Below are positions 3,034 to 47,511 of a stretch of DNA of 64,000 nt, piece by piece. The notes beneath the pieces were generated by a model. That model was not told the origin of the DNA. It ran no database searches and saw only the letters and a program-made list of their open reading frames with translations. Numbering within the stretch: the stretch's first letter is position 1; the number at the start of each line of letters is the position of its first letter. The translations under genes were made by a program, and so were the position numbers. This DNA comes from Thalassococcus halodurans (GTDB taxonomy: Bacteria > Pseudomonadota > Alphaproteobacteria > Rhodobacterales > Rhodobacteraceae), in assembly GCA_950096585.1 (NCBI GenBank), contig CATNDK010000001.1:1-64000 (forward strand), given 5' to 3'.

Positions 3034-4407
3034 TCACTCTTCGAGCGTTCTGCGCAGAATTTCGAGGTCTTCTGCGATTTGTCCGTCCTGTATTTTCAGC
3101 TCTTCGATGCGGCGCACACCGTGCATAACGGTCGTGTGGTCGCGTCCACCGAATTTGCGGCCGATTTCCGGAAGCGAACGGCTGGTCAGCTGTTTGCACA
3201 AATACATGGCAACCTGACGAGGACGCGCAAAGGTACGAACGCGTTTGGGACCAACCATTTCGCTCAGGCGGATGTTGTAGTGTTCCGCAACGCGACGCTG
3301 AATTTCCTCGATCGAGACTTTGCGCTCGGACGCGCGAAGAACGTCTGCCAGACATTCCTGCGTCAGGTCGATGTTGATTTCGCGACCGACAAGCGACGCG
3401 AAAGCGAACAAGCGGGTCAGGGCGCCTTCCAGAACGCGCACGTTGGTCGAAATGCGGTGCGCAAGGAATTCCAGAACACGAGGATCTATTTCAAGGTTCG
3501 GATAGATCGCGCGCTGGGCTTCGACCTTGGACTGCAGAATGCCAAGACGCAGTTCGTAATCGGTCGGGTGAAGATCGACGACAAGACCGGACTGCAGGCG
3601 CGAGCGGATGCGGTTTTCCAGATCCTTGATTTCATCCGGCGCGCGGTCGGCCGAAATGATGATCTGTTTGTTCTGATCCACAAGTGCGTTGAACGTGTGG
3701 AAGAATTCTTCTTGTGTGCTGTCCTTACCGGCGATGAACTGAACGTCATCGACCATAAGAACGTCGACCGAACGGAAGATGGATTTGAAATCCATCATAC
3801 GGCGGTCGCGCAGCGCCTGAACAAAGCGGTACATGAACTGTTCCGCGGACAGATAAAGGACGTTCAAGTTGGGCTGGCGTGTGCGCAGTTCCCACGCAAT
3901 TGCGTGCATCAGGTGCGTTTTACCGAGACCAACGCCACCATACAGGAACAGCGGGTTGAACGTGACAGGGCCGCCTTCGGCCACACGGCGGGCAGCGGCG
4001 TGCGCCAGTTCGTTCGGTTTTCCGACAACAAACGTGTCAAAGGTAAAGCGTTTATCAAGCGGCGCGCCGGGTAGCAGATCGGATGCAGAAGATTGCTTTT
4101 GGACGGGTTCAGGAACCTCGGCCGCCATTTGGGGCGCACGAGGTGCTTTGACAGCTTCGCGCGCATCGACATCGGTTTTGAAGTGAATGCGACGCACGGA
4201 CGGATTTACCGAAGCGATCTGCGACAGCAGCATATCGCCGTAGTTCTGGGACACATAAGTGCCGAAGAAATTCGTAGGTGCTTGGAAAATCGCTACGCCG
4301 GCTTCTGCGCCTTCGTAGTTCAGGGGTTCGATCCAAACCTTGTAGTTGTTTTGCCCGATCGTCTTGCAAATATCATTTTGGAGAGCACCCCATTGATCCC
4401 GTGTCAT
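3034..4407 (-). CDS. dnaA: Chromosomal replication initiator protein DnaA
   Basis: 'LFLYGGVGLGKTHLMHAI', 'VDVLMVDDVQFIAGKDSTQEEFFHTFNAL', C-terminal 'GRDHTTVMHGVRRI' DnaA-box-binding signature. Confidence 0.99.
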   Translation of the reverse strand: MTRDQWGALQNDICKTIGQNNYKVWIEPLNYEGAEAGVAIFQAPTNFFGTYVSQNYGDMLLSQIASVNPSVRRIHFKTDVDAREAVKAPRAPQMAAEVPEPVQKQSSASDLLPGAPLDKRFTFDTFVVGKPNELAHAAARRVAEGGPVTFNPLFLYGGVGLGKTHLMHAIAWELRTRQPNLNVLYLSAEQFMYRFVQALRDRRMMDFKSIFRSVDVLMVDDVQFIAGKDSTQEEFFHTFNALVDQNKQIIISADRAPDEIKDLENRIRSRLQSGLVVDLHPTDYELRLGILQSKVEAQRAIYPNLEIDPRVLEFLAHRISTNVRVLEGALTRLFAFASLVGREINIDLTQECLADVLRASERKVSIEEIQRRVAEHYNIRLSEMVGPKRVRTFARPRQVAMYLCKQLTSRSLPEIGRKFGGRDHTTVMHGVRRIEELKIQDGQIAEDLEILRRTLEE

Positions 4408-6153: not shown

Positions 6154-7005
6154 TTATCTTTGACATTGCGGACAGTAGAAACTGGACCGACCAGATTGAA
6201 CGATCCGCGCGATCGTTCCGTCGCATCCAGCGCGGCGGCACGGGTCGCCTTCGCGGCCATAAACGTCAAAACTGTGCTGAAAATATCCAAGCTCTCCATC
6301 GGCTTGGCGGAAATCTTTCAAACTGGATCCGCCCGCAGCAATCGCATCCGTCAGCACATCGCGAATGACCGGCACCAGTCCGGTGATCCGCGCCTTGGAC
6401 AGATTCGCCGCCTTTCGCGCTGGGTGAATTCTGCAACGGTAAAGCGCTTCGCATACATAGATGTTGCCTAATCCCGCGACGTTTTTCTGATCCAGAAGCG
6501 CAGACTTGATCGGCGTTTTCCGATCCTTCAAGCGCTCGTACAAATACGATTCGTCAAATGTGTTCCCTAGCGGTTCGGGGCCCAGAACGGTCAGAAGCGG
6601 ATGTTCCGCCTGCCCTGCGGTTTCCATCAGATCCATCGCACCAAACCGGCGCGGATCGTTGAATGTGATCCGCGCGCCATTTTCCATGTCAAAAACCACG
6701 TGATCGTGCTTTTGCGCTGGCTGATGATCGTGGACGAATTGCCCCAAGGGATCGCCCGTCACTAACATCCGCCCAGACATGCCCAAATGAATCAGCAGGG
6801 TTTCCCCCGTGCTGAGGTCAGCAAGAATATATTTGGACCTGCGCCGAAGCTGCAGAACCGTGGCTCCGGTCAAGCGCTCTGCCATCCTTTCCGGAAAGGG
6901 CCAGCGCAAATCCGGTCGGTTCACAGAAGCTTTGGCGATCACGGCGCCTTCCATTGCGGGCGCCAATCCACGTCGGACAGTCTCAACTTCGGGTAACTCA
7001 GGCAT
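6154..7005 (-). CDS. mutM: Formamidopyrimidine-DNA glycosylase
   Basis: N-terminal [14 protein letters not shown]-terminal zinc finger '[28 protein letters not shown]'. Confidence 0.97.
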
Positions 7006-7093
7006 GATGTCGCGGTCCTTGGGTAGCGGGGCGCATTGTATCGGCGCTCTGGCGCTCTATAAGAAGGGGCAAGCCAAGGAAACGACAAGTGCC

Positions 7094-7846
7094 ATGACCG
7101 AAAACTCTGGAAAAACGACGCATTTCGGATTCAGCGAAATTCAGGAATCTGAAAAGGCAGGCAAGGTTCAGGGTGTCTTCAACTCTGTCGCCAACAAGTA
7201 CGACGTGATGAACGACGCCATGAGCATGGGCATCCACCGTATCTGGAAAGATGCGATGATGGATTGGCTTGCGCCACGCCCTGGCCAGAAGCTGCTGGAT
7301 GTTGCCGGCGGGACCGGTGACATTTCCTTCCGCTTTTTGAAGCGTGCGGGCCGCGGCCATGCCACCGTTCTGGACCTGACAGAGCCGATGCTGACCGAAG
7401 GCCGCAAACGTGCCGAGGCCGCATCGATGGCCGACAGTCTGGATTGGGTTGTGGGCGATGCGATGGCCCTGCCCTTTGAAGACAACACCTTTGACGTTTA
7501 CACGATTTCCTTTGGCATCCGGAACGTGACCGTGCCGCAGCAGGCGTTGAACGAAGCCTATCGTGTACTGCGTCCGGGTGGCCGACTGATGGTGCTGGAA
7601 TTCAACCAGATCCCCAATGAGATGATGCAGAAGGTGTACGACCTGTATTCCTTCAACATCATTCCCCGCATGGGCCAATTGATCGCTGGGGACAAAGACA
7701 GTTATCAGTACTTGGTGGAATCGATCCGTCGGTTCCCCGATCAGGAAACCTTCCTTGGGATGGTGAAAAAGGCCGGTTTTGAAAACGCGAAGTATCGCAA
7801 CCTGAGCATGGGCATTGCCTGCCTGCATTCGGGGTGGAAAATCTAA
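7094..7846 (+). CDS. ubiE: Demethylmenaquinone/2-methoxy-6-polyprenyl-1,4-benzoquinol methyltransferase
   Basis: UbiE family '[25 protein letters not shown]', '[13 protein letters not shown]'; ATG at 7094 rather than the extended ORF start. Confidence 0.96.
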
Positions 7847-7847
7847 C

Positions 7848-9380
7848 ATGCGCGGACCCCACAACATCTGGCGTTTGATCCGCACCGGTGCAACGTTTGA
7901 ACGTACCGGCGCGATGCGCGTTGTTCTTGACGCGTTCGAGGCCCCCAAGCCTTTGCGTATCGCGGCACGTGTGCTGGGGTGGCCATTCAAATGGCTCGGA
8001 TACGAAGGCGATCCCGAGATGCCTCCGCTGACACGCGCGCTAACTGCTCTGGGCCCCGCCTACATCAAGTTCGGCCAGGTTCTGTCGACCCGCCCTGACG
8101 TTGTGGGCGAAGATCTGGCCGTTCAGTTGCGCATCCTGCAGGATAAACTGCCGCCGTTTTCGACCGAGATGGCCAAGAAGGCGATCGAAGAAGAACTGGA
8201 CGTTCCGGCCGACAGCTTGTTTTCGACGTTCAGCGAACCCGTCGCAGCAGCATCCATCGCACAGGTTCACAAGGCCACTTTGGCGGACAACGGCGAAACC
8301 GTAGCTGTCAAGGTGCTGCGCCCCGGCATTGAGAAAGCGTTCCGCAAAGATCTGGACGCCTTCTTTTTTGCCGCTCGGTTTATTGAATTCCTGTCACCCG
8401 CGTCGCGCCGATTGCGCCCGATGGATGTGATCACCCACTTTGAGGGCGTGGTCATGGGTGAGCTGGACCTGCGGCTTGAGGCGGCTTCGGCATCCGAATA
8501 CGCCGCCAACACTGAACAGGATGCCGGTTTTCAGGTGCCGCCGGTCAAGTGGTTCCTGTCGGGTCGTCGCGTAATGACATTGGGTTGGGCCGAAGGGCTG
8601 CCGATGGGCGACAATACCGCGATTGATGCGGCTGGCATTGATCGCTCCGAACTCAGCGAGCGGGTGCTACAACTGTTCCTGAACCATGCGCTGCGTGATG
8701 GGTTTTTCCATGCCGATATGCATCAGGGGAACCTGAAAATCTCTGAAAATGGCGACATCATCGCGCTTGATTTCGGGATCATGGGGCACATCGACGAATA
8801 CACACGTCGGGTCTACGCTGAGATTTTGTTCGGCTTTATCCGCCGTGATTACAAACGTGTCGCCGAGGTGCATTTCGAGGCCGGTTATGTGCCTGCGGAT
8901 CGTGACGTTGATGAGTTCGCCCGGGCACTGCGCGCTGTGGGTGAACCGATCTTCGGCATGGATGCCACCCGCATTTCCATGGCCCGCCTACTTGCCTACC
9001 TGTTCGAGGTAACAGAACGGTTCGGCATGGAAACACGTACTGAGCTGATTCTTCTGCAGCGCACGATGGTTGTGGTCGAAGGCGTCGCGCGGTCGCTTGA
9101 TCCGCATATGAATATCTGGAAGGCTGCTCAGCCGATTGTCGAAGATTACATCAAGCAATCGATTGGCCCCCGCGCCGTTCTGAAGGACCTTGCGCAAACG
9201 GCCCGCGTGCTTGCGCGATTTGGCCCACGCCTACCGGAAATGGTCGAGGATTTGATGACCCAAAATAGCCGCTCGCACGATCACCATCACCCCAAAAGCA
9301 GCAGTGGTCGTTTTGTTTGGGGTATCTTGGGTTTGGTTATCGGCGGCGCACTGGGCGGGCTGTTGATTGGCGGTTTTTGA
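7848..9380 (+). CDS. ubiB: Ubiquinone biosynthesis protein UbiB (ABC1/AarF kinase-like)
   Basis: 'LGPAYIKFGQVLSTRPD', 'FFHADMHQGNLKI.. GDIIALDFGIMGHI', C-terminal TM segment; next to ubiE. Confidence 0.95.
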   Translation: MRGPHNIWRLIRTGATFERTGAMRVVLDAFEAPKPLRIAARVLGWPFKWLGYEGDPEMPPLTRALTALGPAYIKFGQVLSTRPDVVGEDLAVQLRILQDKLPPFSTEMAKKAIEEELDVPADSLFSTFSEPVAAASIAQVHKATLADNGETVAVKVLRPGIEKAFRKDLDAFFFAARFIEFLSPASRRLRPMDVITHFEGVVMGELDLRLEAASASEYAANTEQDAGFQVPPVKWFLSGRRVMTLGWAEGLPMGDNTAIDAAGIDRSELSERVLQLFLNHALRDGFFHADMHQGNLKISENGDIIALDFGIMGHIDEYTRRVYAEILFGFIRRDYKRVAEVHFEAGYVPADRDVDEFARALRAVGEPIFGMDATRISMARLLAYLFEVTERFGMETRTELILLQRTMVVVEGVARSLDPHMNIWKAAQPIVEDYIKQSIGPRAVLKDLAQTARVLARFGPRLPEMVEDLMTQNSRSHDHHHPKSSSGRFVWGILGLVIGGALGGLLIGGF

Positions 9381-13598: not shown

Positions 13599-13999
13599 GC
13601 GGACTGGTTCTAAAACTGGCACCAAAAGAGCGCCTGTTGATCAACGGGGCTGTGATTGAAAATGGTGATCGTCGAAGCCGGTTGTCGATCCTGACATCCG
13701 ATGTGAACATCCTGCGCCTGAAAGATGCGATCCATCCGACCCAAGCCAAAACCCCGGTAAAACGGGTATGCTATGCCGCGCAACTTGTCCTGATTGGCGA
13801 GCTTTCCGCAGCCGAAGGAAAAGCAGCGCTACTGAAAGGATTGGAGGAGCTGAGTCATGTTCTGTTGGACAACGACAGCCGCCACCATCTGAGCCTTGCG
13901 ACAGACGCTGTTTTGGATGGAAATTTTTACTCGTGTCTCAAGACATTGCGAAATCTGATTCCACGTGAAAATCGCCTGCTTGGAGCCTGTCAGGAATGA
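13595..13999 (+). CDS. flbT: Flagellar biosynthesis repressor FlbT
   Basis: FlbT-like 'LVLKLAPKERLLINGAVIENGDRRSRLSILTSDVNILR'; overlaps flaF by 4 nt. Confidence 0.9.
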   Translation: MSGLVLKLAPKERLLINGAVIENGDRRSRLSILTSDVNILRLKDAIHPTQAKTPVKRVCYAAQLVLIGELSAAEGKAALLKGLEELSHVLLDNDSRHHLSLATDAVLDGNFYSCLKTLRNLIPRENRLLGACQE

Positions 14000-14796
14000 G
14001 CTTTCAGCCGGTCATCGTCGGATCCGGTCTTGTTGGCTGGAACTTTTTGCAATCGACATTCGATCGGCAAAACGAGCTATTTCAAAAAAGCCCGTTAATT
14101 TTGCGGGATACTGAATACTTCGCCGAAAACATTGCTAGCGTTCAAAATGCCGAAGACCTGGTGAATGACCGGCGTTTGCTGCGTGTCGCTTTGAAAGCAT
14201 TCGGCTTACAGGACGACATCAATTCCAAAGCGCTGATTTCCAAAGTCCTGTCAGAGGGCACAGAAAGTTCGAGTTCTCTGGCGAACAAACTGTCTGACTC
14301 CAGATATGCTGAATTTTCGAAGACCTTCGGTTTTGGCAACGCAAACGGGGCGCAAACTTTGGCTGATGGCTTCGCCGAAGACATCATTGCCCGCTACAAT
14401 GCACAATCATTCGAAATCGCGGTGGGCGAGCAGAACGAAACGCTACGCTTGGCTTTGAATGCGGAACGGAAACTGCCGGAACTTGCCGAGCAGTCCAGTT
14501 CCAACGACTCGCTTTGGTATCAAATCATGGGAACACCGCCGCTGCGCGAGGTATTCGAATCTGCGCTGGGATTGCCGAGTTCGTTTGGCCAAATTGATAT
14601 CGACCAGCAACTTGAAGTTTTCCAAGACAAAGCCAACCAACGTTGGGGGACAGATGATGTCCGCGAACTGGCAAAGCCGGAGATGTTGGAAGAGATTACG
14701 AAAACCTATCTTCTACGGGAACAGGCGCAAGAGATCGGCTCTTCGAGTTCCGGCAGCATTGCCTTGACCCTACTTCAATCAATTTCCTTCGGCTGA
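13996..14796 (+). CDS. DUF1217 domain-containing flagellar-cluster protein
   Basis: Matches the pattern of DUF1217 proteins in alphaproteobacterial flagellar clusters; 4-nt overlap with flbT. Confidence 0.65.
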   Translation: MSFQPVIVGSGLVGWNFLQSTFDRQNELFQKSPLILRDTEYFAENIASVQNAEDLVNDRRLLRVALKAFGLQDDINSKALISKVLSEGTESSSSLANKLSDSRYAEFSKTFGFGNANGAQTLADGFAEDIIARYNAQSFEIAVGEQNETLRLALNAERKLPELAEQSSSNDSLWYQIMGTPPLREVFESALGLPSSFGQIDIDQQLEVFQDKANQRWGTDDVRELAKPEMLEEITKTYLLREQAQEIGSSSSGSIALTLLQSISFG

Positions 14797-20257: not shown

Positions 20258-20749
20258 TTGAAATTGATCATTCCAATCATCTTGGCTCTTTTGGGCACCG
20301 GAGCAGGCGTTGGCGCGGCAATTGTCATGGGCGCGGACAAGCAATCGCACGTGACCGAAATCGCCTGCCTGCCAGCTGCGGAAAACATTGTAGCGGAAAC
20401 ACCCCCGAGTTCCGAGGAAGCTCCGCCAAGCGATGGGGAGTTCGTGAAGCTTGCCAACCAGTTTCTGGTTCCGGTTTTGGCCCAAGACGAAGTGGATGCC
20501 ATGGTGGTCATGTCGCTTAGTCTTGAGGTCGAGCCGGGGACAACGTCAGAGGTGTTTCATCTCGAACCCAAAATCCGCGACAAGTTTCTTCAAATCCTAT
20601 TCGATCATGCCAACAAAGGGCACTTCGGTAGCGGATATACCAGCAATCGATCACTCGAAATTCTGCGCAACGCTCTGCGTGCTGCAGCCCAGGACATCAC
20701 GCGCGGGAAAACGCGTGACGTGCTTATCGTAGAAATCGCCAAGCAATAA
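20258..20749 (+). CDS. fliL: FliL family flagellar basal body-associated protein
   Basis: N-terminal TM; 'SLSLEVEPGTTSEVFHLEPKIRDKFLQILFDHA' FliL-like core; directly after flgH. Confidence 0.7.
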   Translation: MKLIIPIILALLGTGAGVGAAIVMGADKQSHVTEIACLPAAENIVAETPPSSEEAPPSDGEFVKLANQFLVPVLAQDEVDAMVVMSLSLEVEPGTTSEVFHLEPKIRDKFLQILFDHANKGHFGSGYTSNRSLEILRNALRAAAQDITRGKTRDVLIVEIAKQ

Positions 20750-20759
20750 ATTCTTCGAC

Positions 20760-21185
20760 CTACCGGTTTTTAGCCTCGGCCATCAGAATGACCGAGGCCA
20801 TTTTCCGTTGTGCCTTTTTCTTGGCTTCCGATTTTAAGGCAAGTGTTTCCATTTCCACCAAGGCCTCGGCCGCAAGGCGGTTGGAAAATCTGATCCTCAA
20901 TTGATCTGTACGATGTGCCTCGAGCGCTCTGTTTTTCGCAAGCGCGATGTTCAAAGATTTCTGACGTTCAGCAAGCCAAGCGAGCCATGTTTCGTTCATA
21001 CCGGACAACTGCATCGCGGCATCGTCCCAATCGATATTCATTCCCTCTCGGAATGCGTCGCTTGCTTTGACGGTTTCAGCGCGCAGGCGATCCCCTTGCG
21101 CTTGAACCGCACGGCAATCCGCCTCTGCTTTTTCTTCCATTAGCCTCGCGACAAGTGCCAGATCCGAGTATTTGTTGTTCATCAA
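20760..21185 (-). CDS. Hypothetical coiled-coil protein, possible FliJ functional analogue
   Basis: 141 aa, charged/heptad-rich, overlaps flhB by 4 nt at the end of the flhA-fliR-flhB operon. Confidence 0.45.
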   Translation of the reverse strand: MMNNKYSDLALVARLMEEKAEADCRAVQAQGDRLRAETVKASDAFREGMNIDWDDAAMQLSGMNETWLAWLAERQKSLNIALAKNRALEAHRTDQLRIRFSNRLAAEALVEMETLALKSEAKKKAQRKMASVILMAEAKNR

Positions 21186-22264: not shown

Positions 22265-23035
22265 CTAGGGTCCCCCGACCGGCGACGCCAAGAAATTATC
22301 GACGGCAACAAGCCATATGCCCAGCATTAGCGGAGACGCGATCATCAGCAGCGCAATTGCCGCCCATGTCACGGCCGGAGCGCCGACCAAAGCAACCATC
22401 AACTGCGGCATCGCTTTGTTGATCACGCCCAAAGTCAGATTGTAGAGGATCGACACAATCATAAACGGAGCCGCGAGCACAAAGGCCTGGTTCATCATGC
22501 TGCCCGCGTTGGCCAAGGCCCAGGCGACAACGTCTTCCGCACTGGGTACGGCACCAAACGGCAACCAGACATAAGAGCTGATGATGAACATGGCGAGCTT
22601 GACATGGAAACCGCCCGCCATCAAAAGCGCCAGTGCCGCAAAGGTCAGGATATGGCCAATTGTTGGCATCGGGTCTTCTTGGGACCCACCGAAAAGCTGT
22701 GAGAGGGACATTGATTGGGCGGCGATTGTCCCTGCCATTTGAAGAGCAAAAATCAGAAACCGAAGCCCCAAACCAAGGAACACGCCGATCAGAATTTCGG
22801 CGAGAACCCAAAGCGACAAGCTGGTAAGTGTCAAACTGTGTATGGCCGCAAAATCGGGCATCGAACCAAGGCATATCACCGAAAATGCGCCCGCGAGGAC
22901 AAGACGGAAACGGACTGGAACCGAGCGGTCGGCAAAGCCCGGAACAACTGTCATCAGGCCCCCGACCCTAAGGAAAACCAGAAAAAGCGATGTCAGGAAT
23001 TCCTGTTGTGCAAGAAGAAGCTCAGCCACAAACAT
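22265..23035 (-). CDS. fliR: Flagellar export apparatus protein FliR
   Basis: Polytopic; 'RVGGLMTVVPGFADRSVPVRFRLVLA'; between flhB and flhA. Confidence 0.95.
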   Translation of the reverse strand: MFVAELLLAQQEFLTSLFLVFLRVGGLMTVVPGFADRSVPVRFRLVLAGAFSVICLGSMPDFAAIHSLTLTSLSLWVLAEILIGVFLGLGLRFLIFALQMAGTIAAQSMSLSQLFGGSQEDPMPTIGHILTFAALALLMAGGFHVKLAMFIISSYVWLPFGAVPSAEDVVAWALANAGSMMNQAFVLAAPFMIVSILYNLTLGVINKAMPQLMVALVGAPAVTWAAIALLMIASPLMLGIWLVAVDNFLASPVGGP

Positions 23036-25104
23036 CAGGTTGCGACCGTGCCGACCAGGTATGGCTTATTGGCGACGCCCAGCTCATCAAACGAGAGGAC
23101 CGGATTGTTGATGCCCTTGGATGACAACACTGTCCGAATGAACCGCCGGCGCTTTCCATTTGTCACAAATGCCGCGGAAATACCGTTCGTCTGATTGTCA
23201 GATACAATAGACGCGGCATTACCCGTCAGGGCATCAAACTCCTTCTTTGGCAACGCAACATTGAAAGACGCGTCATCCATCGATACCTGATGAGCGCGGA
23301 ACAGATCTTCCCATTCCGGAGCAAGCTGGATCAGAGGAATGGTTCCATCCGGACGCTTCAGGCCCGACACAATCTGGAAGCCCAACCGTTGTCGCACGTG
23401 TTCGCACTGGTCATCGATCGATCTGCGTGACTGGCTAATTTCAGCCAAAGCCTCAAGGATCAGTGGAAGATTTCGAATGGAGACCTGCTCGTCCAGCAAG
23501 AGCTTGAGAACCGGTAGAAGATTATCGATTTGAACCTTTTCGGGGATCATTTCATCGAGCAGTCTTTTATTCGCCTCGGCGCGGAAAGGATTGGACACCT
23601 GCACCATTTCATCAAGGATGCGACGCAGCGATTTGAGCGTAAACAACCGCGAGAAGTTCGCTTTGATCGTCTCCATCAGGTGGGTCGTCAGAACTTCGGT
23701 CGGCACAACGATTGTCGCACCAGCAAGGGCCGCCACATCTTGTTTTTCGCGACTGATCCAGCGGGCTGGCGCACCATAGACGGGTTCTTTGACATCCTGG
23801 CCATCCGGCAGAGAGGCCTGATTTTCGGGCAACAAGGCCAGAACCAGATCCGCGTGCAGCATGCCGCGGGCAACCTCTACGCCTTGAATATAAATGACAT
23901 AGGTGCCCGGCGCTAAGTCCAAGCCGTCAGTCAACCTGATCTCGGGCAAAATGAACCCGAAATCAGTGGCGATGTGACGTCTGAGATTGGTGATCCGTGA
24001 ATCCATGCCCGTGTCAGCATTCAACGCCATTGGCACCAGATCCGGCGCAAACTCGATATGGATTTCGTCCAGATCCAGAATGTCACCCAAAGGTTTGGTT
24101 GGCGGTTCGGACGACGGCTCTTCTACGTCCAAACTTTGCTCGGACTCTTTCCGGATTGCTGCCTTTCTGAGCCAAGCAAAAACGCCGACAACCCCGCTGC
24201 CAAAAAGGAAGGGCAGAAATGGCATTCCCGGAAAAAAGGCGAGGACCGCCATGAATGCGGAGACAAGCACAAGTGCATCAGGGTAGCGCCCAAGCTGCTC
24301 GACGATACCGCTGTCTGTCGTGCCCTTAGCCCCGCCGCGCGCCAGCAAAAGAGCGGAAGCAATCGACACGATAACGGCGGGAATTTGCGACACCAAACTG
24401 TCACCGACCGTCAGAATGGCATAGGTTTCGGCCGCAGCGCCGAACTCCATTCCATGAACACCGACCCCCATGATAAGCCCCATGACGAGGTTGAGCATCG
24501 TGATCAAAAGGCCTGCAATGGCATCGCCTTTGACGAATTTCGAGGCACCGTCCAGAGACCCGTAGAAAGTTGTTTCCTGCAGCTCCGTCTCACGCCGCGC
24601 TTTTGCGGTTTCGTGATCAATGGCTCCGGCCGCCATATCGCTGTCGATTGCCAACTGCTTGCCCGGCATGCCATCCAAAGCAAAACGCGCCCCGACCTCG
24701 GCCATCCGCGTCGCGCCTTTTGTGATAACAACAAAGTTCACAATCAGCAGAACAAGAAAGACAACCAACCCCAGAAATATGCTGCCGCCCATCACAAAAA
24801 GGGCGAACCCTTCAATGACCTTGCCGGCGGCGCTGATGCCCTCGTGACCCTGCCCGATAATCAGTTTTGTTGAACTGACATTCAGCGACAGCCGGAGCAT
24901 CAAAGTCGCAAGAAGTACGGTTGGAAAAATCGAAAAATCCAATGGTCGCTCAATGAAAAGAGTGACCGCAAATATCAAAATCGCCAGGGCGAACGACAGC
25001 GACAGCCCGATATCAAGCACCCATGACGGAAGGGGCATCACCATGATAATGATCACGGCCAAAAGTGCTCCTGGCAGCAAGAACCTTGATATGTTTGTTG
25101 TCAT
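23035..25104 (-). CDS. flhA: Flagellar export apparatus protein FlhA
   Basis: 689 aa; 'FPTVLLATLMLRLSLNVSSTKLI', 'MAEVGARFALDGMPGKQLAIDSDMAAGAI' FHIPEP signature region. Confidence 0.98.
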   Translation of the reverse strand: MTTNISRFLLPGALLAVIIIMVMPLPSWVLDIGLSLSFALAILIFAVTLFIERPLDFSIFPTVLLATLMLRLSLNVSSTKLIIGQGHEGISAAGKVIEGFALFVMGGSIFLGLVVFLVLLIVNFVVITKGATRMAEVGARFALDGMPGKQLAIDSDMAAGAIDHETAKARRETELQETTFYGSLDGASKFVKGDAIAGLLITMLNLVMGLIMGVGVHGMEFGAAAETYAILTVGDSLVSQIPAVIVSIASALLLARGGAKGTTDSGIVEQLGRYPDALVLVSAFMAVLAFFPGMPFLPFLFGSGVVGVFAWLRKAAIRKESEQSLDVEEPSSEPPTKPLGDILDLDEIHIEFAPDLVPMALNADTGMDSRITNLRRHIATDFGFILPEIRLTDGLDLAPGTYVIYIQGVEVARGMLHADLVLALLPENQASLPDGQDVKEPVYGAPARWISREKQDVAALAGATIVVPTEVLTTHLMETIKANFSRLFTLKSLRRILDEMVQVSNPFRAEANKRLLDEMIPEKVQIDNLLPVLKLLLDEQVSIRNLPLILEALAEISQSRRSIDDQCEHVRQRLGFQIVSGLKRPDGTIPLIQLAPEWEDLFRAHQVSMDDASFNVALPKKEFDALTGNAASIVSDNQTNGISAAFVTNGKRRRFIRTVLSSKGINNPVLSFDELGVANKPYLVGTVAT

Positions 25105-26720
25105 TGGGTTAATGCCGTCTGTTCCCGCAGCTTATTATCCAAGGGAGCGATACGTCCCTCGGAAACCACTACGGACTCCAGAAGATCATCAACTTCGTTA
25201 ACCACCTCTAAAAATTTAGAATAATCCGTGCCTAAAAGGGCTTCCGTTGTTGATAGTGAGCTCGATTGTTTTGAATCCGTTAATGTTTCACTCATTGCCG
25301 GATAAGATTTCGGTATCGAGAATTTTGGATCAAATTCCGGAAGTCCGATGGCGTCAATTTCCGCCCTAAGGCGAGTGAACTCATCTTGGCCCTGGTCTTC
25401 TTCGTTAATTTTTTGCCAGAAAGCCGCCGAAGATAGCAATAATATATCTTCTTCACTTCCATACTCGACAGCATAAATTACAATCGATTTAAACATGGAC
25501 AGCTTTGTATCGTAGCTGAGTTCAACTTCATCTACGATCTTGATCGACGATAGAAGATCATTATCGGATAAGCGTTTGGATAATTTGATCTTCGTCAGCT
25601 TTTCGAGCTCATTGATGTTCTGAGCTACAACAGCCAACTGATCCAAAAGGGATATTGGCACTTCTACCAAAGATTCCTCATTTATGGCACCTAGGATAGC
25701 AATTTTTACATCCATATCCAGCTGGGGAATTTCTTCTTCGGGCCAAAATTCGTCGACCAAACCAACCTCTCCAAGATGCAGCAATCTTTCTTTGAAATGC
25801 GGTTCAATCCAGTGCCGCGTGACTTCTGGAAAACTGTCCATCATTCTCAACGCAGCCTTGTAGTCAGCAGAGGTTTGGCTGGGTGGATCTGAGAAAATAG
25901 ACCAGAAAACATAGGCTTCGTGGCATTTTTCGTAATTAGCGAAGTTGTGGCCAGAGCTGTTTGGATCATACGACACATTCAGAACTGCGCGCGCTTCGCG
26001 CGTATCTTCCAAATTCAAAGAGTTCATCATAGACTCTGCCTCTGCGAACAATCCCAAAGCAAGGTACTTCGCTATGAATTCAGTGACATCTTGGTTGGAT
26101 AGTTCGTTTCCCACTTTTTCCGATAAATTGGTTCTAGAGACCAGAAGATCTCTATAGGAGAAATGAATTGGAAGGTTTGCAATGTTCTCTACAATACTAT
26201 TACTTGGGCAAACATGTTGGGTAGGAGTAGATGTCGAAGCTGGCATGGCTTTCGATTCAGGGCGTTCTTCTGATTCATCAAGAATGTTTATTGCCTGGCG
26301 TCTGCTTGTATCAAATTTCCATAAATTTTTAGCCTTTAGGAAGTTTTTAGAACTCGAAACTGAAGTGTCATGCGTGCCGTCTTTGATGTCTATCACAAAG
26401 TGAGTTTTATTAAATATGTGAGAGGACAACTCACAATCACAATTAAGGCGTATATTAATCGCTCCGTTATCTTGAGAGATAGAATCTAGTCTTTCGTTAC
26501 TTATATAGTCGAACACGTGATCAACATTGAAAAGAGTTTCTTTCGGAAACTTCACCTTTACCAATCTACGCGTTTTATGATTTATTACCGGTTTTTTTCC
26601 ATTTGGCATCTCCATCACCAAGCGGACAAAGCCGTCGTGTGTTCCAGATTTGACCACGATGCCCTCAGCCGCAACCGAACGTGCGAAAATCAACAGGAAT
26701 ACGGCAAGATAAAACTTCAT
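25101..26720 (-). CDS. Uncharacterised secreted/periplasmic protein of the motA-flhA interval (possible AMIN-like N-terminal domain)
   Basis: Signal peptide MKFYLAVFLLIFARSVAA; N-terminal beta-rich block 'IVVKSGTHDGFVRLVMEMPNGKKPVINHK..', helical remainder; ATGA overlaps with both motA and flhA. Confidence 0.75.
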   Translation of the reverse strand: MKFYLAVFLLIFARSVAAEGIVVKSGTHDGFVRLVMEMPNGKKPVINHKTRRLVKVKFPKETLFNVDHVFDYISNERLDSISQDNGAINIRLNCDCELSSHIFNKTHFVIDIKDGTHDTSVSSSKNFLKAKNLWKFDTSRRQAINILDESEERPESKAMPASTSTPTQHVCPSNSIVENIANLPIHFSYRDLLVSRTNLSEKVGNELSNQDVTEFIAKYLALGLFAEAESMMNSLNLEDTREARAVLNVSYDPNSSGHNFANYEKCHEAYVFWSIFSDPPSQTSADYKAALRMMDSFPEVTRHWIEPHFKERLLHLGEVGLVDEFWPEEEIPQLDMDVKIAILGAINEESLVEVPISLLDQLAVVAQNINELEKLTKIKLSKRLSDNDLLSSIKIVDEVELSYDTKLSMFKSIVIYAVEYGSEEDILLLSSAAFWQKINEEDQGQDEFTRLRAEIDAIGLPEFDPKFSIPKSYPAMSETLTDSKQSSSLSTTEALLGTDYSKFLEVVNEVDDLLESVVVSEGRIAPLDNKLREQTALTQ

Positions 26721-27586
26721 GCTGCATCCTGCTTGGTCTGCTTCAATGCCTCTGCCAAATCACCGAATGACGGCCTGATCGCTGAAGGTGCGTTCTGGCG
26801 CCCCACTTCGATGCACATATTGGTTGGGTGATTGAAGAGATTGGCAACAAGCACTTCTCTGATCAGCTTGTAGAAATGGCTATCTTCCTCAACGACAGCC
26901 CGGACACGCGACGCGAAGGGGGCCACCAACCCATACGCCAAGAAAACACCAAGAAATGTTCCAACCAGCGCGCCGCCGATTAGTTTACCGAGGACTTCCG
27001 GCGGCTGGTCGATCGACCCCATGGTTTTGATCACGCCCAGAACGGCGGCCACAATCCCCAGAGCAGGCAGGCCATCTGCGACCGTTTGCAATGCGTGGCT
27101 TGAGTGTAGATCTGAGTGGAGCTTGGCCTCCAATCGTTTCTCGAGGATTTCTTCAACTTGATGGGGGTCATCGTAGTTCATGGAACCGGATCGAAGCGTG
27201 TCGCAGATCAGCGATACGGCCTCTGTGTCGCCCTGGATTTTAGGATATTTCCCGAAAATCGAAGAGGTATCAGGCTCTTCTATATGAGCTTCCAGCTCCA
27301 TAGGGCTCTGTCGGGCAACTTTTAGAAGTTCGGAGAGCAAACACAGCAGATCACGATAGTCTTCTGGCACCCACTTAGGCCCTTTGAAGACCTTTTTGAT
27401 GTCCTTACCGGTGTGCTTCAGAACGTGTTTGTCATTCGCAATCAAGAAAGCGCCAATTGCGGCGCCGCCGATCATCATCATCTCGAACGGCAGCGATTTC
27501 ATGATGATCCCCATCTTGCCGCCGGCCAAAAGGTAACCCCCGAACACCATGGCAAAAATGGTTACAATTCCTAACAAACCAAACAT
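26717..27586 (-). CDS. motA: Flagellar motor stator protein MotA
   Basis: 'DGLPALGIVAAVLGVIKTMGSIDQPPEVLGKLIGGALVGTFLGVFLAYGLVAPFASR'. Confidence 0.97.
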   Translation of the reverse strand: MFGLLGIVTIFAMVFGGYLLAGGKMGIIMKSLPFEMMMIGGAAIGAFLIANDKHVLKHTGKDIKKVFKGPKWVPEDYRDLLCLLSELLKVARQSPMELEAHIEEPDTSSIFGKYPKIQGDTEAVSLICDTLRSGSMNYDDPHQVEEILEKRLEAKLHSDLHSSHALQTVADGLPALGIVAAVLGVIKTMGSIDQPPEVLGKLIGGALVGTFLGVFLAYGLVAPFASRVRAVVEEDSHFYKLIREVLVANLFNHPTNMCIEVGRQNAPSAIRPSFGDLAEALKQTKQDAA

Positions 27587-27607: not shown

Positions 27608-28708
27608 TTACATAACAACAAGTTCGGCGTGCAGAGCGCCTGCGGCATGTATCGTTTTCAGAACATCAATCATGTCGTGGGGTGCGACCCCCAAGGCATT
27701 CAGGCCTTCCACAATTTGCGACAGGGTCGTTCCACCGGACACTTCGGCCAAACCTGTTCCTTCGGCCTGATCAATCTGCGCATTAGTTCTAGGAAGTTCG
27801 ACCGTTTCGCCGTCTGAGAACGGGTTGGGCTGGCTAACCACGGGTGCTTCCTGAATTCGTAGTGTTAGCCCACCCTGTGAAACCGCGACCCTTGAGATAC
27901 GAACGGATTCGCCAATCACGATTGTTCCTGATCTTTGGTCGACCACAACCTTTGCCCGACGCTCCGGAGCGATCGCCAGAGACTCGATATTCACCAACAA
28001 ATGCGCAGGAGAGTTGCTGCCTGCTGCCGCGACATCAACATCGACGGTTCCGGCATCCAGCATCACCGCGGCCGGTCGCCCGAGATGTTTGTTGATTTGT
28101 GTCTCGATGCGGACCGCGGTTGTGAAATCTGGTTCACGCAACGCCAAACGCAGGGATTTCAACGCTGCGAAGTTGTACTGCACTTCTCGCTCGACCCGCG
28201 CGCCGGACGGAATTGATCCAGACGTCGGGACGCCTTGAACAACGCGTGCGCCCTGCCCCTCATTGGACACCCCCCCCGCGATCACGGTTCCCTGTGCGAC
28301 AGCATAGATTTCACCATCCGCTGCGTTCAAAGGGGTCATGATCAACGTGCCGCCAAGCAGGCTTTTGGCGTCGCCAATGGCTGATACGGTCACATCGATT
28401 TTTGATCCGTTTCTGGCGAACGGAGGCAATTCTGCGGTTACGAAAACTGCTGCTACGTTTTTTGGCCGAAACTGTTCGCCATTTACATTTACACCAAGCC
28501 GCTCGAGTAGGGTTGTCATGATTTCTTCGGTGTAGGGCGCGTTGCGCAGACCATCACCTGTGCCATTCAAGCCAACAACCAGGCCGTAACCAACCAAATC
28601 ATTCCCGCGAAAGCCCTCGAACTCGACCAGGTCCTTGATACGAACAGATTGGGCATGAGCAAGCGATGACACCACGCAAAAGGCGATGAGTAATACGACG
28701 CGGAACAT
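27608..28708 (-). CDS. flgI: Flagellar P-ring protein FlgI
   Basis: 'RIKDLVEFEGFRGNDLVGYGLVVGLNGTGDGLRNAPYT', 'GVAPHDMIDVLKTIHAAGALHAELVVM'. Confidence 0.98.
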   Translation of the reverse strand: MFRVVLLIAFCVVSSLAHAQSVRIKDLVEFEGFRGNDLVGYGLVVGLNGTGDGLRNAPYTEEIMTTLLERLGVNVNGEQFRPKNVAAVFVTAELPPFARNGSKIDVTVSAIGDAKSLLGGTLIMTPLNAADGEIYAVAQGTVIAGGVSNEGQGARVVQGVPTSGSIPSGARVEREVQYNFAALKSLRLALREPDFTTAVRIETQINKHLGRPAAVMLDAGTVDVDVAAAGSNSPAHLLVNIESLAIAPERRAKVVVDQRSGTIVIGESVRISRVAVSQGGLTLRIQEAPVVSQPNPFSDGETVELPRTNAQIDQAEGTGLAEVSGGTTLSQIVEGLNALGVAPHDMIDVLKTIHAAGALHAELVVM

Positions 28709-32525: not shown

Positions 32526-33356
32526 CTATTTCAGAAGGACAAACTCCAACCGGTTGTTGCGGATGTTCATCGGGTTTTCCTGAACCGGATATCGATCGCC
32601 CAGCGCGGTCATCCGCGCGATGCGCGACTCGTTAAGTCCGGCGTGCAGAAGTTGGGTATAAAATGCCTTCGCGCGTGCCTGAGAGACGGACCATGTGGGA
32701 TCTTTGTCCAACACAACCGGAAAACTGGCCACACCTGCCTTCAATGCGATCTGCTGGTTTGTCAGTTCAGCAAACTCCGTCAAAGCACCGGACAGTTTTA
32801 CCAAAAGATCGCTCGGGGTCGTTCCGTCGAATAGTTCGGCCGTGGGAAGATCATTCAGCCTGATTGCGTAGCCCTCATCGGTGAAGCGCGCCGAAACGTG
32901 CGGCATCAAACTGTTGCCATCCAAGCTTTCGACAAGCGTTGCGCGCAGGATTTTATCCAGCTCTTCTTGCGTCTTAGGACCTGCACCGGAGAGGTGAAGT
33001 CTTTGATCTTCGATCAACTCGGATTGGAATTTCGACTGCTTTTGATCGGTTGCTCCGGTGCCGTTCTGCGGCAGGGTATCTTCGGCAAAAACCGAATCCC
33101 CCCTAAGGTCCTTTTCGCCGCCGCCAGAAACCCGGCTGATCGAAATATTCGGGCTGAAATAGTCAGCCAAACCTTTCCGCTGCTTTTCCGTCGTCGCATT
33201 CAACAGCCACATCAGCATGAAAAAGGCCATCATCGCGGTCACGAAATCCGCGTAGGCCACTTTCCACGCGCCCCCGTGGTGGCCATCGCCCGCGACAACC
33301 TTTTTGCGCTTGATAATAATCGGCGCAGATTCATTTCCAGATGCCATTGCATCCAC
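32526..33356 (-). CDS. motB: Flagellar motor stator protein MotB
   Basis: 'HHGGAWKVAYADFVTAMMAFFMLMWLLNATTEKQRKGLADYFSPN', OmpA-like C-terminus. Confidence 0.95.
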   Translation of the reverse strand: MDAMASGNESAPIIIKRKKVVAGDGHHGGAWKVAYADFVTAMMAFFMLMWLLNATTEKQRKGLADYFSPNISISRVSGGGEKDLRGDSVFAEDTLPQNGTGATDQKQSKFQSELIEDQRLHLSGAGPKTQEELDKILRATLVESLDGNSLMPHVSARFTDEGYAIRLNDLPTAELFDGTTPSDLLVKLSGALTEFAELTNQQIALKAGVASFPVVLDKDPTWSVSQARAKAFYTQLLHAGLNESRIARMTALGDRYPVQENPMNIRNNRLEFVLLK

Positions 33357-43315: not shown

Positions 43316-45193
43316 GTGTTTCACGTGAAACATTTGGACTTTGATGTGATCGTTGTTGGCGGTGGCCACGCCGGGACAGAAGCGGCCCACGCATCAGCGC
43401 GAACAGGTGCAAAAACCGCTTTGATCACTATGCGCGAGGCGGATATCGGCGTGATGTCTTGTAACCCAGCGATCGGTGGTTTGGGGAAAGGCCACCTTGT
43501 CCGCGAAATCGACGCCTTGGATGGTGTAATGGGGCGGGTCGCTGACCTTGCAGGCATTCAATTTCGGCTTCTGAACCGCCGGAAAGGGCCGGCGGTACAG
43601 GGGCCTCGTGCGCAAGCCGATAGAAGAATCTATCGACGTGAGATGTTGGCGCTGACTAAAAGCCAAAAGAACCTGACAATCGTTGAAGGTGAAGTCGTCG
43701 ATCTTCTTCTGAATGGTGATACCGTGTCGGGTGTTTCTCTGGCCTACGGAACTACGCTTAGCTCTAAATCCGTTGTTTTGACCTCGGGAACTTTCCTACG
43801 TGGCGTAATCCACATTGGGGATATGTCCTATGCTGGGGGTCGAATGGGTGACCAAGCTTCTGTACGATTGGCCGAGCGTATTGATGAATTTGGTCTGCCG
43901 TTAGGGCGCTTGAAGACCGGCACGCCCCCGCGACTGGATGGTCGAACAATTGATTGGGATCGCTTGGATTCTCAACCCGGTGACGACGAACCGGTGATGT
44001 TTTCGTTCTTATCCAAGTCACCGACAGCAAAGCAGATTTCTTGTGGTATCACGCACACGAATGAAAAAACGCATGAGATCATACGTTCAAACCTAGAGCG
44101 TTCAGCGATGTATGGCGGCCATATCGAAGGCGTCGGGCCGCGATACTGCCCGTCGATCGAAGACAAGGTCGTCCGTTTCGCTGATAAAACATCGCATCAG
44201 ATTTTTCTTGAACCTGAGGGCGTCGACGATCACACCGTTTATCCCAACGGGATTTCGACGTCCTTGCCAGCTGACGTGCAAAAGGATTATGTCCATTCGA
44301 TCGAGGGTTTGGAAAAGACTGAAATCCTTCAACCGGGTTACGCGATTGAATATGACTATGTAGATCCCCGTGCGCTTGACCTGCAATTGGCGGTCAAAGG
44401 CGTGAACGGCTTGTTCTTGGCCGGCCAAATCAACGGCACAACCGGTTATGAAGAAGCGGCCGCACAGGGTTTGATCGCCGGCACAAACGCGGCGCTTCGT
44501 TCTTCGGGGAAAGACCCATTCATTCTAAGCCGGTCTGACAGCTATATTGGCGTGATGATCGACGATCTTACCACACGGGGCGTTAGCGAACCTTATCGCA
44601 TGTTTACGTCCCGCGCAGAGTTCCGCCTGTCACTGCGGGCAGATAATGCGGACCAACGCCTTACACAGATTGGTCTGGATTTTGGACTTGTGGGTGATGT
44701 TAGAAAATCAGCGTTCCAATCAAAGATGGAAGCATTGTATTCGGCGAAAGCGTCACTGGAAGCACTCAGCCTTACTCCAAAAGAGCTGAATGAGATTGGC
44801 TTAACTGTCAATCAGGACGGTGCCCGCCGGAATGGTATGGAAATTCTGGCGTTCCCGGATACGTCCTTTGAATCGCTGCTTGCAGCGGATCCTTCGCTTA
44901 AAAGCGTTCCTGATGACATTCGCCGCCAGCTTGAAAAAGACGCGACGTATGCAAGTTACATCGAGCGCCAGAAAAAAGACGTGGAGGCGCTTCGTAAAGA
45001 CGAGAAACAAGCTATTCCGTCCGACTTCGATTTCGGAGTTCTGAGTGGTTTGTCAAACGAGTTGAAGGATAAGTTGACACGGGCACGCCCGGATAACCTT
45101 GCTCAGGCGGCGCGGGTTGAAGGGATGACGCCGGCCGCACTATCGCTGCTACTGTCCAAGCTTCGCCAAGCTAGCCGTCAAAAATCTGCGTGA
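43316..45193 (+). CDS. mnmG: tRNA uridine-5-carboxymethylaminomethyl(34) synthesis enzyme MnmG
   Basis: '[31 protein letters not shown]', '[23 protein letters not shown]'; GTG start at 43316 or 43325, inside parS. Confidence 0.98.
43317..43332. promoter_or_regulatory. parS: parS centromere site (perfect 16-bp palindrome)
   Basis: TGTTTCACGTGAAACA; ParB encoded 3.3 kb downstream. Confidence 0.93.
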
Positions 45194-45205
45194 CGGGTTC
45201 CTAAG

Positions 45206-45796
45206 ATGAATGTTTCACGTGAAACACTGGACCGGTTGCGCGCGTATGAAGCGCTGGTTCTGAAGTGGTCACCAAAGATCAACCTCGTTTCCAAAGGCAC
45301 GCTGGCTGATACCTGGGGGCGACACATTGTTGATTCCCTCCAAGTTATCGAGTTGGCCCCGAAATCCGGAAAATGGGTTGATTTGGGCAGTGGTGGGGGA
45401 TTTCCCGGTATCGTTGCTGCGATTTGCGCGATGGAAGCGGATCGCGACCACGATGTGATTCTCGTTGAGAGTGACGCCAGAAAATCTGCTTTTCTACGCA
45501 CAGCTCTTCGGGAAATCGGTGTCGAAGGAACAGTTATTACCGACAGGATTGAAAACGTTCCAGGGCAGGGGGCAGACATCCTAACTGCCCGCGCATTGAC
45601 GTCGCTTGATGGTTTGTTGGGCTTTGCAAAACAACATATGGCCGAACAGGGAATAGCCCTTTTCCCGAAAGGGGCGACGTGGCAAAAAGAAGTTGAAGCA
45701 GCAAAAGAACACTGGGATTTCCAAGCAAAAATGCACCCCAGTACGACACATCCAGACGCCGTTGTGCTGGAAGTAAGTGAGGTCAAACATGTCTGA
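45206..45796 (+). CDS. rsmG: 16S rRNA (guanine(527)-N(7))-methyltransferase RsmG
   Basis: 'VSRETLDRLRAYEALVLKWSPKINLVSKGTLADTWGRHIVDSLQ', 'WVDLGSGGGFPGIV'. Confidence 0.97.
   Translation: MNVSRETLDRLRAYEALVLKWSPKINLVSKGTLADTWGRHIVDSLQVIELAPKSGKWVDLGSGGGFPGIVAAICAMEADRDHDVILVESDARKSAFLRTALREIGVEGTVITDRIENVPGQGADILTARALTSLDGLLGFAKQHMAEQGIALFPKGATWQKEVEAAKEHWDFQAKMHPSTTHPDAVVLEVSEVKHV
45211..45226. promoter_or_regulatory. parS: parS centromere site (perfect 16-bp palindrome)
   Basis: TGTTTCACGTGAAACA, starting 5 nt after the rsmG start position. Confidence 0.93.
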
Positions 45797-46598
45797 TCCG
45801 ACGCGTCCCGTTGGTCCGAAGATTATCGCAATTGCCAACCAAAAGGGCGGGGTCGGCAAAACGACAACTTCCATCAACCTAGCTGCGGCGCTTGCGGAAG
45901 AGGGGCTATCGATCCTTCTTGTTGATCTTGATCCACAAGGAAATGCGTCCACTGGCATTGGTGTTGAACCCACAGAGCGCGAATACACCTCTTACGAACT
46001 GCTGCTCGAGGACGTTCCGTTGAACGATGTGATCCGCAAAACGGAAACCGAAGGTGTCTTTGTAGTACCAGCCACCGTTGACCTAAGCTCGGCTGATATC
46101 GAGCTCTATTCGACCGAAAAGCGTAGCTTTTTGCTGCACGATGCGCTGCGCCAGCCTGCAATGGATGATTTCGGCTTTGATTACATCCTTATCGACTGTC
46201 CGCCTTCGCTCAATTTGCTGACGGTGAACGCGATGGTCGCCGCACATTCCGTCCTCGTGCCCCTGCAAAGCGAATTCTTCGCACTTGAGGGCCTGTCTCA
46301 GCTTATGCTGACAGTCAGAGAGGTTAGGGAAACGGCGAATTCCGCGCTCAGGATCGAAGGTATTGTTCTGACCATGTACGATGCACGGAATAACCTGTCG
46401 TTGCAGGTAGAAGAGGATGCGCGCGATAATCTTGGGGATCTTGTTTTCCAGACGGTTATTCCCAGAAACGTCCGGGTCAGCGAGGCGCCGTCTTTTGCGA
46501 TGCCGGTTACGTCCTACGATGGCATGTCCAAGGGTGCGCAGGCATACCGCGCCCTTGCCCGTGAACTAATCAAGAAAAACAGCAAACTGGCCGCATGA
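45789..46598 (+). CDS. parA: Chromosome partitioning ATPase ParA
   Basis: Deviant Walker A 'ANQKGGVGKTTTSINLAAALAEEG'; upstream of parB. Confidence 0.98.
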   Translation: MSDPTRPVGPKIIAIANQKGGVGKTTTSINLAAALAEEGLSILLVDLDPQGNASTGIGVEPTEREYTSYELLLEDVPLNDVIRKTETEGVFVVPATVDLSSADIELYSTEKRSFLLHDALRQPAMDDFGFDYILIDCPPSLNLLTVNAMVAAHSVLVPLQSEFFALEGLSQLMLTVREVRETANSALRIEGIVLTMYDARNNLSLQVEEDARDNLGDLVFQTVIPRNVRVSEAPSFAMPVTSYDGMSKGAQAYRALARELIKKNSKLAA

Positions 46599-46608
46599 GG
46601 AGAGCATC

Positions 46609-47511
46609 ATGACAACGAAAAAAGATACACGTCGGGGGTTGGGTCGCGGTCTTTCTGCTTTGATGTCGGATGTGGCCCCGTCGGCACCCGCTGATCAGGT
46701 AGCTGCCACACCGGCACGCGCCGACCGCATGGTACCGATCGAGCGGATTTTCCCCAATCCGGACCAGCCGCGTCGCACCTTTACCCAGGATCAATTGGAA
46801 GAACTGGCGGCGTCTATCAAGGAAAAGGGCGTTATCCAACCGATCATCGTTCGTGAAAAACCGAGTGAGGCTGGAAGTTTTGAAATCGTAGCTGGTGAAC
46901 GCCGGTGGCGTGCCTCGCAGTTGGCGCAGCTGCACGAAATGCCGGTTTTGGTTCGCGAATTTACCGACACTGAAGTGCTGGAAATAGCGATCATCGAAAA
47001 CATTCAGCGCGCAGACCTGAATGCGATCGAAGAAGCGGCCGGTTATCGTCAACTGATGATGAAGTTTGGTCATACCCAAGAAAAGCTGGCAGAAGCCTTG
47101 GGTAAAAGCCGAAGCCATATTGCGAACCTGCTTCGTCTGCTGAATTTGCCGGAAGACGTTCAGGCACTTGTTGTCGAAGGAAAGCTCAGCGCGGGTCATG
47201 CGCGCGCGTTGATCACAGCTGAAAACCCTTCCGAGCTTGCCAAGCTGGTCGTGGAAAAGCAGCTTTCTGTGCGTGAAACCGAACGTCTGGCCAAAACAGT
47301 TGCCGCTCCGGACAGCGCCAAGATCAAAGCGAAGCCGCGCGATGATAAAGATGCAGACACAAAAGCGCTGGAGGGCGATCTGTCGGCCGCACTACGCATG
47401 AAGGTTCGGATCGATCATAAGCCCGGCCAAGAGGCGGGCTCGGTCAGCATTTCCTATGATACGCTTGAGCAGTTGGACGAACTTTGCATGTTGCTGAGCA
47501 CGTCGCGCTAA
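46609..47511 (+). CDS. parB: Chromosome partitioning protein ParB (CTPase)
   Basis: 'RRGLGRGLSALMSDV', 'NPDQPRRTFTQDQLEELAASIKEKGVIQPIIVR', 'GERRWRASQ', HTH 'TQEKLAEALGKSRSHIANLLRLLNLP'. Confidence 0.98.
   Translation: MTTKKDTRRGLGRGLSALMSDVAPSAPADQVAATPARADRMVPIERIFPNPDQPRRTFTQDQLEELAASIKEKGVIQPIIVREKPSEAGSFEIVAGERRWRASQLAQLHEMPVLVREFTDTEVLEIAIIENIQRADLNAIEEAAGYRQLMMKFGHTQEKLAEALGKSRSHIANLLRLLNLPEDVQALVVEGKLSAGHARALITAENPSELAKLVVEKQLSVRETERLAKTVAAPDSAKIKAKPRDDKDADTKALEGDLSAALRMKVRIDHKPGQEAGSVSISYDTLEQLDELCMLLSTSR

Follow-up and report, generated by a model that had tools for sequence, protein, structure and literature searches.

MotK is a periplasmic protein of Cereibacter sphaeroides (C. 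sphaeroides) that is essential for flagellar rotation, and a motK mutant has paralysed flagella (PLoS One 2024, PMC10954123). The protein binds MotE and MotB2 and localizes to the flagellated pole, where formation of a polar focus requires MotA2 and MotB2; its gene belongs to the operon fliL2-pflI-motE-motA2-motK (PMC10954123). In Phaeobacter inhibens (P. inhibens), a gene known as CP4 is essential for motility and is found in the order CP2-CP3-motA-CP4-sltF-flhA (mSystems 2025, PMC12363192). CP1 is another motility-essential gene of the fla1-type flagellum, and C. sphaeroides was one of the strains in the comparison that defined CP1-4.

In Campylobacterota, the spoke protein PflA acts between FlgY and the stators. 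FlgY, the E-ring partner of PflA, is itself a relative of MotE. PflA is made of a beta-sandwich and 16 TPR motifs (PMC12222027). MotE has been viewed as the likely E-ring protein of Alphaproteobacteria, and MotK as the counterpart of the PflA spokes (PMC13023049). MotC of Sinorhizobium meliloti is likewise periplasmic, MotE-dependent and needed for rotation; its relation to MotK has been proposed on structure only.

A motK homolog between motA and flhA

The window, a 64,000-nucleotide stretch at the start of a Thalassococcus halodurans contig, carries a minus-strand cluster with the order motB-flgE-flgK-flgL-flgI-motA-motK-flhA-fliR-flhB. Its first gene, motB (32526..33356), encodes a stator subunit. 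The motK/CP4 homolog (25101..26720, minus strand) is an open reading frame for a 539-aa protein with an ATG start, read from the sequence. It is preceded by the stator gene motA (26717..27586; Pfam MotA_N and MotA_ExbB), which has flgI (27608..28708) directly upstream, and is followed by the export gate gene flhA (23035..25104), all on the minus strand. The coupling proposed in the sequence-only reading can be read directly in the DNA: the start of motK overlaps motA by four bases (gcagcATGAagttt, 26717-26720), and its stop overlaps flhA by another four (cccaATGAcaaca, 25101-25104), both of the ATGA type.

On the plus strand, a gene for a DUF1217 protein (13996..14796; PF06748, E=1.3e-46) lies in the CP1 position, a slot assigned by the order fliC-flaF-flbT-CP1, which is that found on plasmid pA of C. 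sphaeroides. After flhB, a 141-aa open reading frame without Pfam match (20760-21185, minus strand) occupies the slot of 'gene 19', which is conserved but has no known function, and looks FliJ-like by eye. The flagellar genes are flanked by dnaA, dnaN, recF and gidA/parAB-type genes, identified by eye (3034-4407, 1759-2877, 641-1762 and 43316-47511); similar flanking has been reported for the oriC-proximal flagellar cluster of P. inhibens. The surroundings of the flagellar genes contain no CtrA-type TTAA-N7-TTAA site, and the one exact match elsewhere in the window is about what chance would give.

Orthology with MotK and correspondence with CP4

A BLASTP comparison with MotK of C. sphaeroides 2.4.1 gave two colinear matches, one in the N-terminal domain (2e-13) and one in the middle domain (4e-8). 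A family HMM, built from 79 named relatives with the window genus left out, scored the window protein at 138.7 bits (E=1.5e-41), while 200 shuffled versions reached 2.2 bits at most. The alignment pairs model positions 3-160 with residues 2-161, and positions 299-416 with residues 206-318; the middle domain alone yields 34 bits, with an independent E-value of 1e-8 for residues 206-318.

Gene position tells the same story. No part of the motK alignment is conserved well enough to serve as a probe; when loci of relatives were gathered by scanning a genome collection with motA, the gene was found immediately 3' of motA in every one of the 79 complete named loci, 73 of them with a 4-base overlap. 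Relatives in other genomes directly follow motA wherever motA was assigned, and a family match is present in 201 of the 298 genomes of the GTDB family. Orthology to MotK is thus shown by similarity in sequence, by the place of the gene and by the order of the domains. The gene very probably encodes a shortened, rapidly diverging MotK (that is, CP4), which would be a periplasmic protein exported by Sec and belonging to the archetypal, fla1-type Rhodobacterales motor. The earlier description of an uncharacterised protein that matches no flagellar protein therefore has to be abandoned, as genetic studies of C. sphaeroides and of P. inhibens have characterised MotK/CP4, and the BLASTP, HMM and positional evidence makes this gene an ortholog of motK. 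Homology to a characterised motor protein, the finding that the sequence-only reading had itself named as fatal to its proposal, is what was obtained.

To relate the two nomenclatures, we relied on the C. sphaeroides 2.4.1 genome, recognised by its plasmid pA flagellin region (100% identity over 2490 bases). Its operon reads fliL-PflI (130 aa)-MotE (185 aa)-motA-MotK (652 aa)-sltF-flhA, and the lengths of MotE and MotK are those published (PMC10954123, PMC13023049). Because the gene order is also the one published for the CP genes, position indicates that CP4 is MotK, CP3 is MotE and CP2 is PflI. CP4 of P. inhibens (PGA1_c35690) was linked through gene order and close relatives (Leisingera, Phaeobacter sp. 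J2-8). MotK and MotE are unmentioned in the paper on the CP genes (PMC12363192), a literature search combining MotK with Phaeobacter returned no match, and none of the papers examined equates CP2-4 with PflI, MotE and MotK.

The resemblance to Fla2 MotK of C. sphaeroides (RSWS8N_12065; Q3IY86, 652 aa) extends to the overlap after motA, the AMIN-like domain, the linker and the first part of the TPR-like helices, and probably to the signal peptide. However, 113 aa are lacking from the length of the window protein, no resemblance can be recognised in its last ~214 residues, and motE lies outside the motA-motK operon. With P. inhibens the locus shares the type of flagellum and the motA-CP4-sltF-flhA gene position, except that no sltF separates motK from flhA in the window.

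Domain layout and predicted structure

The N terminus (MKFYLAVFLLIFARSVAA, followed by E) resembles a Sec signal peptide by eye, with a lysine, a hydrophobic stretch and an SVAA cleavage-like site; the signal peptide would cover residues 1-18, in agreement with the secretion proposed earlier. An AMIN-like domain is predicted at residues ~20-116, followed by a disordered linker (~117-170), TPR-like helices with family match (~171-325) and a region without recognisable homology (326-539). When the window protein was modelled with AlphaFold, residues 20-116 reached pLDDT values of ~94-97, most helices up to ~325 came out well, and the remainder was mostly poor. A Foldseek search matched the AMIN part only. 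The top two PDB matches were the B2 AMIN domain of PilQ (4aqz) and AmiC (4bin), with E-values of only 0.03-0.04 and a probability of 1.0. The AMIN-like N terminus suspected from the sequence is thus borne out at the level of fold, and the helical remainder is predicted to be TPR-like. Searches of Pfam, NCBIfam and PDB sequences with the single window protein gave nothing useful; some family members match TPR and AMIN-like Pfam models.

A full-length relative, from Phaeobacter sp. J2-8, was modelled as an AMIN-like domain plus a long rod of helical repeats. Among 350,542 PDB chains, its top match was chain K of 9hmf, a structure of the periplasmic scaffold of the C. jejuni flagellum (E=1.1e-5, TM 0.16); from its length of 773 residues, we infer that this chain is PflA. 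The features in common with PflA would be a beta-sandwich N terminus, an unstructured linker and a TPR superhelix, as judged from the fold of the full-length relative at this low TM-score. For PflB, the rim partner of PflA, no Rhodobacterales counterpart was identified here.

In family alignments, H28, F31, R33, I73, R77 and D111 of the N-terminal domain are invariant, and E227, A228, C266, W273 and P298 are conserved in the middle helical domain. Cysteines C94, C96, C171 and C266 are kept across the family, C171 and C266 being invariant in the alignments, and periplasmic disulfides are possible.

A short C terminus in a fast-evolving gene

The window MotK has 539 aa, whereas the 79 named relatives range from 641 to 837 aa. 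Some 330 C-terminal family positions have no counterpart, as model positions 417-748 are not found in it, and for residues 326-539 no match was found outside the genus. Relatives from other genera share only ~14-20% of their residues with it overall. Comparison with a same-genus ortholog (87% identity) yields a dN/dS of 0.40 for the whole gene, versus 0.028 for motA and 0.014 for flhA; the AMIN-like domain and the middle domain stand at 0.24 and the linker near 1.4. motK is thus the fastest-evolving gene of the cluster, and constraint appears to be weak in places.

Shortening and fast divergence admit more than one explanation. One is that motK is decaying, and that its function is being lost in this genus under relaxed selection. 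Loss of the C-terminal repeats, the highest dN/dS of the cluster and a low GC3 would fit. This explanation seems, however, improbable, as the reading frame is intact in two species, and motA, flhA, flgI and MotE all show ~99% identity or more within the genus, so that the motor is under strong constraint. Furthermore, the dN/dS of ~0.24 in the two folded domains makes motK look like a working, constrained gene. A 533-aa MotK is also encoded directly after motA in another genus (6810-8411 of its locus), where flhA does not follow; short forms are therefore not unique. A tentative reading, to which we give less than even chances, is that MotK in this genus and at least one other has been reduced, separately or jointly, to the AMIN-like domain and a short helical remnant that ends in a new C terminus. 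The spoke from E-ring to stator would then be either shorter or completed by another protein.

Another explanation for the contents of this slot is a stator factor of the MotC or MotF type, unrelated to MotK. MotC, MotF and MotK are all needed for rotation, and a distant homology between MotC and MotK is accepted in a review (PMC13023049). This explanation is nevertheless very unlikely: the direct similarity to MotK is significant in two colinear regions, and an AMIN-like domain is present in the window protein and reportedly absent from MotC (PMC13023049). Besides, the family profile reports one gene of C. sphaeroides, motK, even though that species also encodes MotF, and MotF was accordingly rejected as a family member. 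Of the two functional analogues proposed in the sequence-only reading, MotC stands as a suggested distant counterpart, while MotF finds no support.

Acquisition of a foreign gene into the operon, invoked to account for the AT-richness of motK, has hardly any chance of being correct: the GC content is indeed 42.2% (GC3 0.43) among neighbours at 52-58% (GC3 0.61 in motA and 0.62 in flhA), which confirms by count an AT bias first noticed by eye, but in every relative examined this position is held by the same family. In nearly all 79 named relatives GC3 is lower in this gene than in motA, by 0 to 0.16 (0.18 here); the lag is family-wide, and AT-richness does not point to a foreign source. Horizontal transfer was rejected as the cause on these grounds.

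Partner genes and a split flagellar cluster

Orthologs of MotE (47% identity to C. sphaeroides, 1e-37) and PflI (52% identity) are encoded in the genome of the window, at ~150 kb on the same contig, beside fliF and ~120 kb from motA-motK. Contig stretch 143000-162000 holds both the fliF operon and fliL-pflI-motE (positions 6694-8364 and 8463 onward of that stretch). The same split is seen in a sister species, where the fliF operon and fliL-pflI-motE are likewise apart from motA-motK. It is because fliFHNP and fliL-pflI-motE are located elsewhere that flgI adjoins motA in the window. In D. shibae, an insertion of 108 genes reportedly separates motBflgEKLI from fliFHNP, so breakage in this region has a precedent.

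The genome harbors two FliL-family genes, one by flgH (window 20258-20749) and one by pflI-motE (7834-8364 of the 143000-162000 stretch). A second flagellar system (fliE-fliF-fliI and others) exists in the genus, both in this genome and in the sister species, and the stretches of it that were read contained no gene of the MotK family.

Distribution beyond the family

A class-wide search detected family-like proteins outside the GTDB family, many of them ~1000-1400 aa long. A MotE homolog was nearby in all 12 loci checked there, and in 11 the MotK profile also matched an open reading frame. When a full-length member was compared by tblastn with plasmids, including those with other flagellar clusters, only Paroceanicella matched. 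CP2-4 have been stated to be exclusive to the Rhodobacterales fla1 type, whereas Caulobacter CC_2058 has been suggested on structural grounds as a MotK counterpart (PMC10954123, PMC13023049). The pairing of MotE with MotK-like genes outside the family argues that the pair is older than Rhodobacterales, which fits the CC_2058 suggestion and runs counter to exclusivity.

A candidate role for MotK in the motor

By orthology, the window MotK would most likely be a periplasmic spoke that ties the MotE ring and the cell wall to the MotA/MotB stators. The AMIN-like domain might hold on to a rim protein or to peptidoglycan, the TPR-like rod might extend toward the MotE ring around the MS-ring, and both together might hold MotA/MotB stator units or open them, much as PflA does between FlgY and the stators in Campylobacterota. 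None of the papers examined reports that the AMIN-like domain binds peptidoglycan. The earlier idea of a co-translated motor gene agrees with a motK ortholog joined to motA and flhA by ATGA overlaps, and co-translation after motA would keep the dose of MotK matched to that of the stator.

Mutant phenotypes of the partners differ between species: P. inhibens lacked visible flagella when CP2 or CP3 was mutated (PMC12363192), in contrast with the paralysed motE mutant of C. sphaeroides. The roles of the partners may differ between P. inhibens and C. sphaeroides, or the P. inhibens insertions may have been polar. In PMC12363192, FliC is given for the CP1 and CP4 mutants in the results, and the discussion calls CP1 and CP3 late-acting, which is probably a slip.

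Altogether, these observations are mostly ordinary, as the protein family is already characterised and loss of half of the scaffold domain is the one unusual point. They remove one 'unknown' from the archetypal Rhodobacterales flagellum, and they join two literatures, that of CP2, CP3 and CP4 in P. inhibens and that of PflI, MotE and MotK in C. sphaeroides. CP4 thereby gains a concrete candidate role as stator scaffold and E-ring spoke, and the short allele offers a natural test of how much spoke a motor requires.
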